Positions 2,121 through 64,000 of a stretch of 64,000 nt of DNA are shown here, in pieces. Where the stretch lies: NCBI RefSeq assembly GCF_000264995.1, contig NW_006767443.1, positions 646,330-710,329 of the forward strand. The letters are read 5' to 3'. The notes beneath the pieces are model-generated. The model ran no database searches and had not been told where the DNA came from. It saw only the letters and a program-made list of their open reading frames with translations. A program made the position numbers and the translations under genes. Numbering within the stretch: position 1 is the stretch's first letter; every line of letters begins with the position of its first letter. The DNA is from Punctularia strigosozonata HHB-11173 SS5 (Eukaryota; Basidiomycota; Agaricomycetes; Corticiales; Punctulariaceae).

Positions 2121-4658
2121 GAAGATCCTGGGAGGACTTGATCCGCGGCATCCTTGATCGTCCGAGGCGTCTGTGCTACGCATGATACGGGTCCCGTCCG
2201 TCCATTATGAATGCCTCCCTCGCGTTGGCAAATCCTACCATCATGCACGACATATCAGACTTGTTAGTAGCTATCAAAGATGTAGATTGTACGCCGACGC
2301 ACCAGTCGGACTGCATCTCGAGCTGCGACGTGTATACAGCAGTGTGAGTTACAGTTCTGCGTTGGCCTCAATCCTGACTTCTTCGGGGATATGATGTCAG
2401 AAGGTCGCGCATTGCCAGGCCGCGCACTTGCGTGGCTCGTCGGCTCCAGCAACCCGAGACGTAGGTCGGGAACCAGTGGACAAACTTGTAGTTAACGTTC
2501 AACCGGGCGAATATCGTGTACAGCCACCACAACTTGCTCGATCGTCTTGTAAACGTGAGTAAGGGGGCGCCAAGCGCCGCGTCCGACTCCCCCATGAAAA
2601 GGATCCCGGGCAGGAGACAACGCCGGTCCACAGTGGAAAGGCACTGGCTGATGTACTCAAAACCGACAGGCTCCTGCGCTGTGTGCACACCACATCTTCT
2701 TTTGACCACCCACAACTTCGGTAACTACTAACTACTACCGTATTGTACATTTTTCTTCGGATTAGATCTGGGCAGAATTGAGCATCTCACATACTCCCAA
2801 GGCACATCGTGCGCTGGTGCATCACCTTCCGCTCTTGAGGATGGTCTCTTAATTGTGATGCACCACAGATGATCCCATATCACTGATGAAAACTGTACTA
2901 GAGATATGAAGAAATGTATTAGTGCTCTCTAGAGATTATCTGATCGGGACTGGAAGCGAGTCAGGCACATCTTGTGGTGAAACATGGTCTCTGCAAAAGT
3001 GAACAATTTCTTCAAAATCAGCGACTCCTTTGATTCACTGGAAAACTCGGATCTAGGATATTAAAGCATGAATCTACCACCAAGTATTATATCAAGGCTT
3101 TCAGGTTTGTCCTTCATACGGGATTAATGTTTGTATCAAGGAGTGCGGCGGCACCAAGCAGTGCCTGTACACTGTACCCCAATAGGCAAGTGTCATGGTG
3201 CTTCGACGTATAGCCACTGGCGAAACCTTGAGAGACTATGATTACGTAAATAGTCATGTTTCTCCCACGATCAGTGGCAAAGGACCATGGGAAACTGCCG
3301 CGGCTAAGGCCGTTTCATCCCTGAACTGATCTCCATATTTATGTAAGCAGTCCCACACCTACAGCTGTCACGCTCCCACGCCAGAGTCAAAATCACGCTC
3401 TATCACGCCTTCATCACGCTTTGGCTGAGGGTCACGGATTTGTCACTGTGACCGAAGTGGTCGGAAAAAGAACCAACTCCTTCCCTTCGGGGGAGTCGGA
3501 ATTGTTTTACACTCAATCAGGCCTAGTCATGTAAGCACCCACTGATGCCAGGTCTTCTCAACCCACTTAGCTTGCATACCTAGGCTATGACTGAGCAATC
3601 GCATCTACCTCCGGATGGAACTCATAGACACTGCACGTTGCTGGCGGCTTACAATGTCTATGCGCATGAATCCATGAAGATTGGTCGGGCACTCGACATT
3701 GTCGACCGTCCCAATTCCGATCCCATAACCATTTTGAGACCCCTTGCTACGATTTAACTGGGCATCTTGTAACCTGGATGACCTCTCCGTGGCTTCTTCT
3801 GACTCAGGGAGCTGCGATACCGACTCCATGACTTAGTGACCAACCCCACTCCCTTGAGCTTGGAACCTGAAGGTTGAACTTGCTCTACTTCTTCCCTCGT
3901 GCGCTATAACGACCTGGGCCTGCAATGACAATCATGCCCTGTCTTGTCTATCCTTAGGTGGTCCGCGCGGCTCAACTCGACGTCGCGGACTGCGAACGGA
4001 CTGATTGAACCCACCCCGAACGACTTCGCTAGTACACAGTCTTTGGATGATCGGAGTCTCGCCGTCTATAACGAAAGAGTGGTGTCGGCGAGATACGACC
4101 CTGAACTTCACGCCAGCCAATGAAGATCCGAAGCCAACCCATCGGCACTCCTTTACACACGCACAAACCTTCGTCCGAAATAGAACTGTACCCCGAAATG
4201 TCATCTACGCTGCGGCGCACTTGACCGCCGCCATGTTCTGCACCCGCTGGCCCTCTTTTCCTTCCAAGCTTGGGTCAACGTACTGTGGAATGCTAAATCC
4301 GTCTCAAAGTCGAGAAACTGGCATTCGAATATTGGTCCTTCATCCAGACGAAAGACCGTGGGCACTCGTGTCAGGGCTATGGGAGACGAAGGCTTAGACT
4401 TTATGAGACCGCGAAATCATGATCACGGAGCTTTCAGTACCCCGAACATTGAGCCCAATCACATTCATCGGGGTGCCTCTCCTCTCATGCTATCTCGATC
4501 ATTTGCTTCCGTTGACGGACAGAAGCAAGGCTGCCACACACATGACGGCTCAGCGAATAGCACTGCTTCAGAGCCAATACAAATCCCGCGGCATCTAAGA
4601 CTTTGATAAGAGGCATCCATCCAGAGCGAACTGTTGGCTAACCGCTTGAGCTTCAACG
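2121..4658. other. Long intergenic region, no recognised gene
   Basis: No frame here shows a recognisable protein. The longest candidates are a 115-residue minus frame (2,368-2,715) and a 130-residue plus frame (4,005-4,397), neither with motifs or convincing splice continuity. From about 2,760 to 3,200 the DNA is AT-richer and poor in CpG compared with both sides, as expected for an old methylated repeat. Around 3,360-3,460 there are several spaced CACGC words whose meaning is unclear. The promoter of the P450 at 4,659 must lie in the right part. Confidence 0.5.
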
Positions 4659-57714: not shown

Positions 57715-58997
57715 ATGGCCAAATTCAAATCCAGGATTACCAGGCTCTTGAGTACGTCGCTCCTCGTCAAGCACGCGGTAGCGAGACTCTGACGCATACA
57801 TGCAGAGATTTCGACGCCAGTGATATCGGCGCCGATGGCAGGCGGGACCTGTGCCCGACTCGCTGCGGCGGTCACCTCCGCGGGCGGCTTTGGTTTCATA
57901 CAAACTGGTGCGCATCAGCCCGTAACCACGTAGGCCCAGTCTCAGTCTCGTTACAGGGTACGACCCCGCCGAGAAATTCGAGAAAGAGCTCTTCACCGCT
58001 CGCGAGATCCTAGGCACTTCCCGAAACGAGCCCCTCCGCATCGGGGTGGGTTTCATAGGGTGGATTCTGGACGAACGCCCAGAACTAGGTCGAGACCTCA
58101 TCCCGCTCGCGCTCCAAAACCGCGTCTCCGCCCTGTGGTTCGCCTTCGGCGCGGACTTACGTCGCTGGATCCAACTCGCGCGCACGGCCGAGGCCGAGCT
58201 CGGATATGGGCAGCAGACGCCCATATTCGTTCAGCTTTCGTCGCCACAAGAAGCGGTCCAAGCTGTAGAACAGTGGGGTGCTGACGTGATAGTCGCCCAA
58301 GGTACGTGTCTGGGCTCGCAAACGGGAGAATACGCACTGACACCTTGGGGTAGGCATCGAAGCAGGCGGACACGGATCGGCCACGGCACCACCTCTTCTC
58401 AGCCTGATACCGTCCACGTTGGCAGCCCTGCGCTCCGCTGGACTGCAGGATGTGCCGGTACTGGCTACGGGCGGGCTGGCGCGTGGCAGCCAAGTGGCCG
58501 CTGTCCTTGCGCTCGGCGCTGACGGCGCAGTTCTCGGCACTCGCTTCCTACTCTCGCATCAATCTCTCTATACCGACGCGCAGAAGAAGGTGCTCCAGGA
58601 AGCGGACGCGACGTCGACGGTGCGCTCGATGGCGTTCGACTATTCGCGGTGGACCGTGGGCTGGCCTGCCGGGATAGATGGGAGAGGTGTCCGTAATCGT
58701 GCTGTGGAAGAGTTAGAAGATGGATCGAAGCCGGAAGAGCTGCGCGAGCGGTACGCAGAGGCGGTTAAGGAGGGGCGAACGGACAGGGCTGTTGTGTGGT
58801 CGGGTCAAGGGGTCGGGCTCGTGTCCGAAGTCGCTGATGCCTCGGTAAGTCCAGCCCGCCCATGTCCTTGCCTATCTACTCGTGCTACTCCAGGCACTCA
58901 CAACCAATCTCTGCTATAGGATATAGTACGCGAACTACACGAGGAAGCCGTGTTGCATCTTCGTGCATCGGCCGGCGATATCTTAGACGCACCCTAG
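57715..58997 (+). CDS. Nitronate monooxygenase (2-nitropropane dioxygenase family)
   Basis: This is an FMN-dependent TIM-barrel enzyme that oxidises alkyl nitronates such as propionate-3-nitronate. Five exons (57715-57751, 57806-57907, 57957-58301, 58354-58844, 58920-58997) give 350 residues, a normal family length. The barrel start PVISAPMAGGTCARLAAAVT is followed by AGGFGFIQTGY, GVGFIGWILDE, DVIVAQG-IEAGGHGSATAPP (FMN-phosphate and catalytic-histidine loop) and VLATGGLARGSQVAAVLALG. GADGAVLGTRFLLS completes the phosphate site. The end VWSGQGVGLVSEVADA-S-DIVRELHEEA matches the family. Fungal members detoxify nitronates; a cytosolic role is inferred as no targeting signal is seen. It is convergent with the SET gene. 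An earlier intron choice at the 5' end was rejected because it broke the PVISAPMAG strand. Confidence 0.94.
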
Positions 58998-59212: not shown

Positions 59213-61359
59213 TTACCGCACCGCATGCTCGAATGGCGGACTTACATCAAGCCGCTCGTTCACTTCTTGGCTGGAGGAGCACGCCATCTGATGTCTCCTG
59301 TCCTCGCAGAGCCGTATCACCTGACGCGCAATCAAAGTCAAGAAGTGCAACAACGATTCGTCGCTGATCTCCGCTTCGATAGCGTGTTCGTATGAGGAGG
59401 CACCACCACCCAAGTTGATAGCCAGATCGTCCTCCGTGAGCCCTTGCTCTTCGCTAGCCCCTTGGCGCTCTTCCACAGCACATTCCAACTCTACCTGTTT
59501 CTGGGCGGCGCGTTGGAGCATCCCGATATAGTCCGAAGGTCGATTCTCGACTTCTTCCACCACCTTCCTCCGCCCTTCCTCGGAATCTCTCTCCTTCCTC
59601 AATTGAAGCAGCCCGACCGTGGCCGCATACACCCACAAGTGGTGCGATACCTTGCCGTCCGCGTTGAGTTGGAATATGGGTGTGTTCGCGCGCGGGACCT
59701 CATCGTTCCCAAGAAGTGTATTTCCGTCGGAGCCCGCGCTTTCTCGACCAACTGGAGCGACAAGGTTTGACGACTCCCACATTGTGCTGTCGGGCCACTG
59801 GGCAATCAAATACGAAAGCAGCCGCAGCTCCAAAGCATGCCGTGACTCGTCGATGACACCGCCGAAGCCCGCCGGCTCGTGCGTCGTTCGTGCGGTTCCG
59901 TTGTCCACCCTCGTCGGACTAGCGAGCCTCCGACGTTTCGGGGCTCGCTGTTGGTCTGAGCCATCCTCTGCGTCGGCTTGCGTCGAGAAGCTCGACTCAT
60001 CGCACTCGGGACTTTCGGGGTTTGGAGTTGCGCTCCCGATCCCGCGGCCGAAGATCCTGAACAAATGAGTGAGAAAATCACTTCTGCCGCCGTAATTGCC
60101 TCGCTGACATACCACGGCAGCTCGTTCGCGTACCATTGGATGCTGTCGTTTTCGTTGCTATCGAGCATGAACCCATACCGTGCCAGGAGCTCGGCATTGC
60201 TCAAATGCTCTCCGTATGTATTGAATACTTCTTCGCCAGCCTGCACGTGTGCATTGGTGACCATCTCATATGTGTCGCTGCCGCTTTGGCCGTTCAATGG
60301 CTGCCGCCAGCCGCGCTCAACGGTGCTGCCGTCTTCGTCATGGGGACATTCATCGAGGGAACCACATGTAGGGCAGACATGGTAGTCACTCTGTTGAGGT
60401 TTCAGCATGAGAACAAATGATGCTTGTCGGATGCACTACCTCAAGATGGATGTGATTGTCTTGAATGTGGTTGAACCTGGGGAGCATGTTGGAGTGAGTT
60501 GTAAGCTGAACAGAGTGTGATGGCAGAATGAACATACACATCTGCAATAGGGACCATGCAAAGGCCGTGGTATGCATCTGTGATGAATGCCCTTGACGAC
60601 ACTAGGGCAAAGGCCCTGCAAAAACCTGACAAGGTTGGTCCTGAGTTTGGCCACAGATGGTTGATTGTAGGAACCACAGTGCTTTGATAGAAGCGGTGGA
60701 CTGCATCCTGTACATTGTTTGCAGTCAGCTCATGCTCATGCTGGATGATGCTCAGAATTACACTGTAGCTTGCTACCTGATAATCATGGATTGCATGCCA
60801 GAGCTCAGTACCAGCTGCCCAGGACCATGCTGACTGGCTATCCATCTTCCAGTTTGGGTCCAAGAACAGATCCTGGTCTCCCAGGCTTTCAAAAGCTATG
60901 TCCAGCATATATCAGCATGGGTCAAGCTGTGAGCAGCAGCAGAGGCTCAACTACTCAAACCCCATAAGCTTGCAATCATTGGGGGCTCTATAGGGAGGGA
61001 TTGGATGTACCCATGCCACCGTGAATGTATGCCTTGCAGGATTTCACCATACAATGCAAGGGCAAGGAACAGCTGAGCAGATAAGCCATACAGTGTTTGT
61101 TGCCAATTGATGAACTGATGAAGACCACGGTGACAAGATCGCACTGATAGCACTGTTGTCCTCGGGATGTGAACCACTGCAGAAGCTTTAGGTGGAATAC
61201 TGAAATAATTTGCATGTACAAACCTGAGGATGACACAGGAATCTCTGCTGTAGCATGAACACACAAACCACCGTTGTCATGCACTATTTGCAGCCGCTTG
61301 TCGATTGTGATACCAGATGCATGACACCATTTGAGGAGAACCTGAAGTGTGTTGGACAT
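59213..61359 (-). CDS. SET-domain lysine methyltransferase, SETD6/Rkm4-like
   Basis: Six exons (61224-61359, 60961-61185, 60538-60895, 60440-60476, 60113-60390, 59213-60056) sum to 626 codons without a stop. The start MSNTLQVLLKWCHASG opens a SET domain that is split by a long insert, as in SETD6 and the ribosomal-protein methyltransferases. VHIPRTTVLSVRSCH and SRWHGYIQSLP come first. FCRAFALVSSRAFITDAYHG, PIADVFNHIQDNHIHLESDY, a CPTCGSLDECPHD cysteine cluster and EEVFNTYGEHLSNAELLARY follow. The carboxyl half (PKRRRLASP and a coiled region with LVGLLQLRKERDSEEG-like helices) is acidic and helical. The likely role is methylation of a lysine in a ribosomal or nuclear protein, by homology. The gene is chimeric in composition: exons 1-4 and the start of 5 are CpG-poor, the rest CpG-rich. 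Confidence 0.9.
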
Positions 61360-61563
61360 GAGGGACCATGGAGGGAAGAAACAGCCTTATAGTTGACCAG
61401 GTTTGCACCGAGTGGATACTTCAATGTTCCCACAGTCACGTGATGTGCTTTTTGGAGATCGTTCACATTGTCTCCAGGTTGACCAAGGTGACCACCACAC
61501 TTTTCTTGTTTGTACTCGTCTCCCCAGCCCCAACTCCAACCCTGATCCTAACCCTAAGGCCTC
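61360..61563. promoter_or_regulatory. Divergent promoter region, SET / C2H2
   Basis: Only 204 bases separate the two start codons, so the genes must share promoter elements. It holds a telomere-like CTAACCCTAA word (61,547-61,556), probably chance or a binding site for a telobox-type factor. Confidence 0.5.
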
Positions 61564-62671
61564 ATGCCCCCTGAACGAGTTCTGATTGAACTATCTGCAG
61601 TTCCTTCTATGGCTATGACAGCTTTGGTGGAGCTCAACTGTATCTGGATGGATTGTACTGCCATCCTCAATTGCTGGTATGCACTAAAGGAGGTTTGTTG
61701 GCTCCTACTCCAAGCCACCAAGAGAGCTTATCATACCATCTAGCACCTTATATTTCACTGTCAATGTGAAGGGCAGATACTTGATGTGTGTAGAAGTCAC
61801 CAGTGGTCCTTCAAATCTGACTGTTCTTCCAGGATACATGGAAATGTGGCATACAAGATTGTTCTGTCGATGATCTGGAGTCAGAGGAGGCACTTGTCAC
61901 TCATATCAAGGCAGTACACATGCCACAAATACCTCTTCCGTGTCCTGCCAAAGGTAAATCCATGAATTCGCTTTTTTATGATAATTCACTCATCCATCCA
62001 TCTACACAGGCTGTCAAAGGACTTATTTAAACAGTCCCATCCTCACTGCACATTTTGGCAGGGCCCACAGAGCATTACTTGAAACACCCGTCTCATCTTC
62101 CCACCTCTGGATGATTCTGCAACCACAGCACGATCTGATCCAGCTACCTAGCCTCGGAAAGCTCCCACCACCATTAGCCCCAGGGATCAGCTACAACATG
62201 CTACCGGTGTATCAAGGGACAAGGCCTTCACAGCATCTTCCTACCTCCCCCAGGAAGAGGTGGAAGAAGTTGGATCACCCAGATCCAGAAGATGATGGTC
62301 AAGACTCCGACTCTGACACTCCCGAGCTGAGCCGCTTACCAGTTCCCCACCCCCTTGGTTTATCCTTTTTTGTCCCAAGGGAGATCACTGTGGACACACA
62401 GCAGCACATGTCTGCTGCAGACATATCTCAACTGTTGTCAAGGCCCATACGTCCAACCCTGGAGCCCTCAGTCACCACAGACTCCAGCGGTGATCCAAGA
62501 TTGCCCGGTCATAGTGAATTCAAGCGAGAAGCTGAGGGTTATGAGCATGAGGGTCTCTTGATTGGGGATGGTCTATGGCCAGAAGAGAGGCAAGGAAGTG
62601 ATGCTCAGCATGACGAAGGAGACTATGATGAATTTGAGCTTGTATTGGAGGATGCCATGGACAGCAACTGA
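61564..62671 (+). CDS. C2H2 zinc-finger protein, three fingers
   Basis: Four exons (61564-61692, 61744-61785, 61833-61953, 62010-62671) sum to 318 codons without a stop. Three C2H2 fingers sit in the first 110 residues. Finger 1 is C-IWMD-C, twelve residues, H-LIF-H, and its two halves are joined by intron 1. Finger 2 is C-GIQD-C ... THIKAVH. Finger 3 is C-PAKG-C-QRTYLNSPILTA-H-FGRA-H, split by intron 3. The rest is disordered, with an acidic Asp/Ser patch (DPEDDGQDSDSD), proline-rich parts and a very acidic end DEGDYDEFELVLEDAMD, which could be an activation domain. A nuclear DNA-binding role is inferred. The fingers appear only when the small exons are spliced; the last exon alone shows no motif. 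It lies wholly in the CpG-poor block. Confidence 0.85.
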
Positions 62672-62871
62672 CCACAATACCCTAGTTTACACAATCGAAC
62701 ATAATCCTATCATTCACTTAAAGAGTCGTGCATCTCAGGCAAGCAGCTGGCATGCACTGTGTTCATGTTTCTGCAAAACCGAACATAAAATAGTCATCAT
62801 GGAAACAGATACATCATGCTGGTCTACATCTTGTTTGCTGGCATACAGTTCATTCATATGGTACAACGGAA

Positions 62872-64000
62872 TCAGTGGACGATCTCCACGGTGAGATCGC
62901 CTTGGTTGATGGAGTCACCTGCAGGAAAGTCAGCAATGATGCACCCGCAGACCTGGTAATGGTCTGATTTCTCACCTTCTTGTACAACGACGCGCTTGAC
63001 GTGGCCAGACACCGGCGCAGTAATGGCAGATTCCATCTAACGGCCCAGTCAGTACTCGCGCGAACATCAACTTGTAACGAACTGACCTTCATCGCGCTCA
63101 TGACGCACAGCGGGTCACCCTTCTTGATCTCCTGACCCTCCTTGACGCGCACCTCGACGACGACACCGGACATCGGGGCGCCAACTGAGCCGGGATCGGA
63201 TGTCGCCTTCTCGCGCGAGACGGTCTCGACGGCAGAGTTCTTGTCCTCTACGGAGACGGCGCGAACCTTCGAGCAGTCGTAAGTACATCGCCCTTGCCAC
63301 GACGACAAACGCTGACCTCGCCGTTTACTTCGAACCAGACGTCGCGCTGCGCCTTACCCTCGACCACAGGGCCGACGGCCATCAACCGGATGATCAACGT
63401 CTTGCCCTTCTCGATGGAGATATGCATCTCCTCGCCGATCTCAGGACGTCCGAGGAAGTAGCGGGTCGGGATCACGCTGGAGGACCTCTAGTCAGCGAAG
63501 TGTCGTTAACGCGCGGGCGTCGAGATATACCTGAGATCACCGTACTTCTGGACGAAGTTCTGATACTCTTCGAAGACCTATCGCGTCGGAGGTTCATTAA
63601 CGTTCGTCCGTGACTATACACGTGAAGTCGCTCACCTTTGGATACATGACATACGACGTCACATCACTGTCTGAAATGTGCTTGCCAAACTTGCTGCGCA
63701 GCTCCGCCTTGATCTTCTTGAAGTCGAGGGGCTCCATGGTCGCGCCGGGGCGCCCGTCGATCCTCGGCTTGTCCCTAATGATACGCGAACGGAGGGGCTC
63801 TGGGAATCCGCCGACGGGCTGCCCGAGGTAGCCCTGGAAGAACTCGACGACCGACGACGGGAAGTCGAGCGTCTCGGCACGGTCGATGACGTCCTGCTTC
63901 GACAGCTTGTTCGAAGTCATCCACTGAGCGAAGTCGCCGACGACCTTCGACGACGGCGTGACCTATGGGGGATGTGAGGACGGGATGTCAATGTACGGTG
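62872..64000 (-). CDS. PYC1: Pyruvate carboxylase, 3' part
   Basis: This is the carboxyl end of the biotin-dependent enzyme that makes oxaloacetate from pyruvate; the gene continues beyond the right edge. Six exons are visible (63636-63962, 63541-63587, 63317-63476, 63087-63266, 62976-63036, 62872-62918), with an intron from 63,963 to the edge. They encode the end of the carboxyltransferase domain (WMTSNKLSKQDVIDRAETLD, FFQGYLGQPVGGFPEPLRSR, SYVMYPKVFEEYQNFVQKYG, SVIPTRYFLGRPEIGEEMHI), then VGPVVEGKAQRDVWFEVNGE. The biotinyl domain follows with VGAPMSGVVVEVRVKEGQEI and the biotin-attachment motif CVMSAMKM. That motif is split by an intron right after its lysine. The protein ends EGDSINQGDLTVEIVH. 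One acceptor is GAAG. It is very well supported. Confidence 0.96.

Follow-up and report, generated by a model that had tools for sequence, protein, structure and literature searches.

A CpG-poor island over open genes in Punctularia strigosozonata as a probable scar of long-lasting CpG methylation

How can a stretch of DNA lose most of its CpG dinucleotides while the genes on it stay open? The question is raised by a segment of the basidiomycete Punctularia strigosozonata HHB-11173 SS5, at positions 60362-62867 of a 64,000-nucleotide stretch of its genome (C11:646330-710329, hereafter the window; the whole assembly comprises 32 contigs and 33.57 Mb). This segment, which we call the island, holds part of a SET gene and a C2H2 zinc-finger gene, and ends beside the stop codon of a pyruvate carboxylase (PYC) gene. 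Judging from its sequence, we consider that long-lasting CpG methylation of a discrete domain holding working genes probably left the island as its mutational scar.

Results

Extent and depth of the island

The initial annotation had described a sharp drop in CpG with an excess of TG/CA at 60370-62870. This was confirmed: the interval has a CpG observed/expected ratio (O/E) of 0.24, 1.40 CpG per 100 bases and a TG/CA O/E of 1.56. In 1-kb steps, CpG O/E was 0.80-1.40 over positions 1-60000, fell to 0.56, 0.28 and 0.38 in 60001-63000 and stood at 1.36 in 63001-64000. No further 1-kb step of the window had an O/E below 0.8, and likewise no 250-bp step fell below 0.8 in the next 9.7 kb. A maximum-likelihood fit of two borders placed the island at 60362-62867; G follows 5.6% of C within it versus 31.9% outside. 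The fitted segment has an O/E of 0.24, compared with 1.14 ± 0.09 (minimum 0.86) in 579 overlapping 2506-bp windows of positions 1-60361. The step proposed for the sliding O/E curve was present at both borders, and the scan statistic of the island reached 126.5 against a maximum of 13.3 across 500 permutations of the CpG labels, which ignore local correlation.

The left border had been assigned to exon 5 of the SET gene; its best fit indeed lies 28 bases inside that exon, but the range (60333-60439, 3 log units) extends over intron 4. On the right, as had been noted, the border falls at the PYC stop codon (62874-62872), with the best fit four bases beyond it. A coding region thus ends at this border, and the accompanying statement that the island matches no gene boundary did not hold. 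The edges are steep but imperfect, with 6 and 7 CpG per 100 bases in 60201-60400 and 4 and 4 in 62801-63000, then at least 9.

Nature of the base change

We compared the fraction C/(C+T) before each of the four bases with that of 51 control windows of 2.5 kb. Before G it was 0.122 in the island versus 0.566 ± 0.069 (minimum 0.413) in the controls, while before A, C and T it was 0.712, 0.474 and 0.543 versus 0.642 ± 0.037, 0.483 ± 0.035 and 0.549 ± 0.038; the raised value before A is expected from change on the opposite strand. The sum of CpG, TG and CA per 100 bases is nearly conserved (20.9 in the island, 21.7 in 1-60361), which means that the lost CpGs reappear as TG and CA, and the similar numbers of TG (238) and CA (252) indicate that both strands were affected. 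All four NCG contexts were reduced (fraction of C followed by G: ACG 0.059, CCG 0.074, GCG 0.026, TCG 0.070), without the TCG preference that marks the RIP-like (repeat-induced point mutation) change of Microbotryum. Among the parts of the island, O/E was 0.09 in the SET introns (1 CpG in 222 bases), 0.22 in the SET exons, 0.32 in 61360-61560 and 0.27 in 61993-62671, whereas the SET exons beyond the island had 1.18. The island thus shows the trait of methylation-type decay, a loss confined to C before G with a matching gain of TG/CA; most simply, ordinary local DNA would have undergone CpG transitions via deamination of 5-methylcytosine (5mC).

Two further islands in the genome

Targeted protein searches, rather than a genome-wide CpG scan, located two more islands. 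A search of the genome with the DNA_methylase family gave three places, on contigs C5, C9 and C6, with locus O/E of 1.10, 0.25 and 0.93; two of them carry DNMT1-RFD features. The C9 place lies in an island of 4.4 kb (C9:326284-330698; L040 6284 to L041 698) in which 4.7% of C are followed by G versus 29.0% outside, and whose left border (326284, range 326124-326322) is best placed within a coding exon of the RFD region. Eighteen exons inside this island splice to 1049 open codons, with BAH and methylase pieces over the cut-off and an RFD match of 21.2 bits, just under 22. The frame contains PPCQSFSG, ENV and RQIGNAVP, which we take to be DNMT1-type methylase motifs, PPCQ being the catalytic one. 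With RFD, BAH and C5-methylase domains and PPCQ, the predicted gene has the features of the DNMT1-RFD type. Its 5' part is near-normal (250-bp O/E 0.59-1.39, L040 5001-6250) and the rest lies mostly in the island. The C6 place, where an RFD match (C6:554999) stands 2.6 kb before the methylase match, is taken as a putative second DNMT1-RFD gene. The third place, C5:349232-349675 (L002 1501-1944), is CpG-normal, contains the stretch TSCVDYSNLNN and is, we presume, perhaps DNMT5-like.

The C2H2 protein found one place in the genome besides its own, a paralogue on C21 with 42% and 69% identity in two pieces. This gene too sits in an island, of 1.7 kb, where G follows 4.6% of C versus 29.9% outside. 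After correction for 370 masked bases it spans about 2916-4625 of L042, with a left-border range of 2911-3177. The island adjoins a dispersed 0.4-kb repeat with 46 reported matches, itself included. Beside the paralogue we also noticed the arms of an inverted 266-nt repeat, 86% complementary (L042 1497-1762 and 2612-2877).

C/(C+T) before G is alike in the three islands (0.122, 0.101 and 0.111), and none of the three deviates by more than 2 sd from the control mean before A, C or T. Such equal depth suggests that the state is being maintained and does not reflect decay of differing ages. Because the change is CpG-specific, the CpG+TG+CA sum is nearly conserved and two further islands have the same depth, a gene-bearing segment kept methylated fits best among the three explanations that the initial annotation had offered.

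Another of the three was an introgressed or horizontally acquired segment; a tract from a CpG-poor donor would have entered the locus by recombination, with its breakpoints inside coding DNA or next to it. The fairly sharp borders in or beside coding DNA at the window island and on the left side of the C9 island agree with it. It is weakened, however, by a composition that apart from CpG equals the background, by the weak but in-order alignment of the SET parts on both sides of the border to the same family of structures in the Protein Data Bank (PDB), and by the C2H2 paralogue elsewhere with an island of its own, which a random tract does not predict. We regard such an origin as unlikely. An assembly chimera was set aside, as the SET frame continues across the left border and other islands exist.

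The C2H2 paralogue, likewise CpG-poor, would fit an attack on duplicated DNA resembling RIP or methylation induced premeiotically (MIP), in which repeats, once detected during the sexual cycle, have their CpGs methylated or mutated; for basidiomycetes, reports of CpG-type mutation in repeats exist (PMC4352252, PMC4457147). However, the paralogue is just 42-69% identical in protein, and a near-identical second copy was not found: genome DNA searches returned only the query itself, both for the window island (simple repeats and very common words skipped) and for 3717 of the 4415 bases of the C9 island, and the N-terminal 330 aa of the SET protein have no second place in this genome. The modelled frames are moreover open and the island, as said, shows no TCG preference, all of which makes a RIP- or MIP-like attack quite improbable.

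CpG depletion and transposons across the genome

In an arbitrary sample of eight 10-kb stretches (66,961 unmasked bases) we found one CpG-poor stretch, at about 2251-3500 of L061 (250-bp O/E 0.24-0.86), and it overlaps a transposase-like frame (DDE_Tnp_4). Neither this sample of about 67 kb nor nine MutS/Rad51 places held a gene-covering CpG-poor island. The six MutS-family and three Rad51-family places, which were not sorted by meiosis specificity, all had a locus O/E of 1.00-1.19, and the hypothesis that meiosis genes are the affected class was rejected. Among the best 30 of 51 reverse-transcriptase matches, O/E was 0.44 and 0.58 at two loci, 0.79-0.89 at four and at least 0.95 at 24 (three of the last class are inflated by masked bases), so CpG decay also touches transposons in this genome. 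None of these fetched loci has a mean O/E as low as that of the three gene islands (0.20-0.24). One reverse-transcriptase locus (C12:786544-790284, L031) has an open frame and an O/E of 0.44 throughout, unlike most fetched elements.

These data bear on the last of the offered explanations, methylation that spread from a transposon since lost at the locus and left a passive scar without function. The dispersed repeat beside the C21 island and the transposase-like frame under the single CpG-poor stretch of the sample speak for it. At the window locus, by contrast, it found no support, as the genome search, which skips simple repeats and very common words, showed no repeat in the island and no other CpG-poor stretch lies alongside; at C21 the repeat is less depleted (O/E about 0.4-0.8) than the gene (mostly 0.07-0.4); and the equal depth of the three islands would suggest a level still held. 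Nor does the island look like the relic of a silenced transposon, being unrepeated in the genome search and having no transposon domain in the scanned gene pieces. We therefore give the lost transposon little credence.

Selection on the island genes

We found no internal stop in the 1781 pooled codons of four island genes, while simulated unselected decay gave 9.9 ± 3.9 and none of 1000 runs was stop-free. CpG per 100 codons at codon positions 1-2, 2-3 and 3-1 was 1.91, 0.45 and 1.46 in the island genes versus 6.41, 10.89 and 13.21 in 16 CpG-normal long frames, the latter being long open frames and not verified genes. CpG was best retained at positions 1-2 (P = 7e-8, two window genes plus DNMT1). 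Thus silent sites lost nearly all CpG and Arg codons retained more. Arg is written AGR in 43 of 77 island codons versus 93 of 514 in the comparison.

Several observations weigh against the preferred reading of a methylated domain with working genes. When restricted to the two window genes, the better survival of CpG at codon positions 1-2 is not significant (P = 0.20), and their 518 codons would by proportion be expected to hold only about 3 stops; most of the selection argument comes from DNMT1. Some circularity affects the stop count, since exon models were picked to stay open. Arg makes up 4.3% of the pooled island proteins versus 7.8% in the comparison frames; either amino-acid change was also accepted or the proteins simply differ. 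At C9 the CpG+TG+CA sum is 18.7 versus 21.9 and C before C and T lies 1.7-1.8 sd under the mean, which indicates that the change there is less purely CpG. An O/E of at least 0.95 at 24 of the 30 fetched transposon loci (the best 30 of 51) argues against a general depletion of repeats. Finally, a telomere-like array described below is present in one of the three islands, being missing from those on C9 and C21, and thus cannot be a general cause.

Genes in and around the island

The features of the locus are collected in Table 1. The SET gene model runs on the minus strand from 61359 to 59213 in six exons and encodes 622 aa plus stop (623 codons); the frame had been annotated as intact with 625 aa, and it is open, although of this slightly different length. 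In PDB the protein matched 13 sequences of the SETD3/SETD6/Rubisco LSMT class, with a best whole-sequence E of 6.5e-05, no single stretch passing 0.001, and against Pfam SET it scored 15.9 bits (cut-off 22.4). Its N-terminal part aligns weakly to SETD3, and the parts on either side of the border match human SETD3 collinearly (residues 8-109 and 288-334). This weak but in-order alignment fits one gene of the SETD3/SETD6/Rubisco-LSMT class and not two unrelated pieces. No relative was found among contigs of bacteria and archaea.

The C2H2 frame had likewise been called intact, with 317 aa. Its last two exons form an open frame of 260 aa with two fingers, whereas the 5' exons are uncertain. The protein had no match among viral contigs. 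To the left of the SET gene, a CpG-normal frame of nitronate monooxygenase type (Pfam NMO) occupies 58341-58919 of the window.

Table 1. Features of the locus (positions in the window).
Feature	Position	Strand	Basis or remark
CpG-poor island	60362..62867	none	O/E 0.24; C/(C+T) before G 0.12
SET exon 1 (ATG at 61359), in island	61224..61359	-	splice model by eye and script
SET exon 2, in island	60961..61176	-	splice model
SET exon 3, in island	60538..60895	-	a 36-nt in-frame stretch is intron or coding
SET exon 4, in island	60440..60476	-	with the end of exon 3 encodes ADVFNHIQDNHIHLE
SET exon 5	60113..60390	-	contains best-fit left border 60362
SET exon 6, C-terminal part, CpG-normal	59213..60056	-	splice model and CpG counts
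Degenerate telomere-like array	61522..61557	none	29/36 match to (CCCTAA)6; between SET start and C2H2 candidate start
C2H2 gene, 5' part, candidate ATG 61564	61564..61832	+	exon borders uncertain; similar peptide by eye in C21 paralogue
C2H2 exon with first finger (CGIQDC..HIKAVH)	61833..61953	+	open-frame splice
C2H2 last exon: second finger, acidic tail, to stop codon	62010..62671	+	open-frame splice; C21 paralogue
PYC stop codon, beside right border	62872..62874	-	sequence
Pyruvate carboxylase gene, 3' part (biotinyl and PYC_OADA domains)	62875..63962	-	CpG-normal from about 63000

A telomere-like array at the window island

Between the two divergent genes lies an array that matches (CCCTAA)6 at 29 of 36 positions, compared with 21 of 36 at the next best place in the window and at most 24 in 40 simulated 64-kb first-order sequences. 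A 12-base scan with two mismatches recovers the array, although that scan alone is not above chance. CCCTAA/TTAGGG is the telomere repeat of this genome, with 92 overlapping exact 24-mers, of which all but one (at C24:2590) lie no more than about 200 bases from a contig end. By analogy, the array is possibly a heterochromatin nucleator at the window island; it could also be a promoter element of telomere-like sequence or a remnant of break repair.

A study by Zofall et al. from 2016 is said to bear on the heterochromatin islands of fission yeast, an organism (S. pombe) that to our knowledge has no 5mC. Five heterochromatin islands of fission yeast hold 2-5 telomere units, and shelterin recruits an H3K9 methylase to them (PMC6576747). 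The window island, alone of the three, shares internal telomere units with these islands and resembles them in its small size and in its few telomere-like units (PMC6576747). It differs in that the other islands here are without an array.

Discussion

How methylation would have produced the islands can be set out as follows. Long-lasting CpG methylation would have acted in nuclei that are passed on to descendants. CpG sites almost alone turned into TG and CA on both strands, down to about 5% of C followed by G, the level common to the three islands. The agent would be 5mC maintained by DNMT1/DNMT5-type enzymes, and purifying selection would preserve the proteins while silent CpGs decay. The borders may mark where adjacent transcription units remain unmethylated, and at the window locus the telomere-like array between the gene starts may nucleate the methylated domain. 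Gene-body methylation, with a free promoter and an affected body, does not describe the window island, which covers a divergent promoter; the C9 DNMT1 gene, with its near-normal 5' part and depleted body, fits that pattern.

CpG depletion of methylated transposons is reported in basidiomycetes (PMC4352252), including Ganoderma sinense (PMC4457147), and the islands resemble these in the CpG-type C to T change and in the presence of DNMT1-class methylases. Unlike them, they cover genes with open frames, single-copy by DNA searches, and not repeats. With the RIP-like CpG mutation of Microbotryum (as cited in PMC4352252) they share the CpG-type C to T change, but without TCG preference and without a duplicated target found. 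Host genes with CG methylation, mostly of low expression, are described in G. sinense (CYP and zinc-finger genes; PMC4457147) and Pleurotus (genic methylation; PMC5974365), as are highly methylated genes in Laccaria and Coprinopsis (PMC8889193) and methylated alleles in Puccinia striiformis (PMC12129025). In G. sinense the genes listed as methylated include C2H2 ones (PMC4457147), a class that the islands here hold as well. Those are measured states, whereas ours is deduced, and the available parts of the four accounts (PMC4457147, PMC5974365, PMC8889193, PMC12129025) mention no CpG-poor island with open genes and no methylated methylase gene. According to a recent review, CpG methylation in most basidiomycetes is limited to regions rich in transposons, and fungi have largely lost gene-body methylation, with exceptions, perhaps since coding DNA gets mutated (PMC13297926). 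What is unusual here is that open genes, a predicted DNMT1-RFD-type gene among them, have lost most of their CpGs; in literature searches we recognised from titles no published case of a fungal DNMT1 gene lying open in a CpG-poor island.

A bolder version, which we put forward as speculative and rather doubtful, is that a small set of working regulatory genes (including one of the DNMT1-RFD methylase genes, the C2H2 gene in two copies and the SET methyltransferase gene) sits in islands whose methylation is inherited permanently. A feedback switch would then arise from the methylation of the methylase gene, and the islands would represent an on/off state that is inherited and has lasted long enough to rewrite their DNA.

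Gene-bearing islands of this kind would show that some genes long bore the mutational cost of methylation with their frames open, a methylase gene included. They would be detectable in any assembly by CpG O/E and could be checked directly by nanopore reads.

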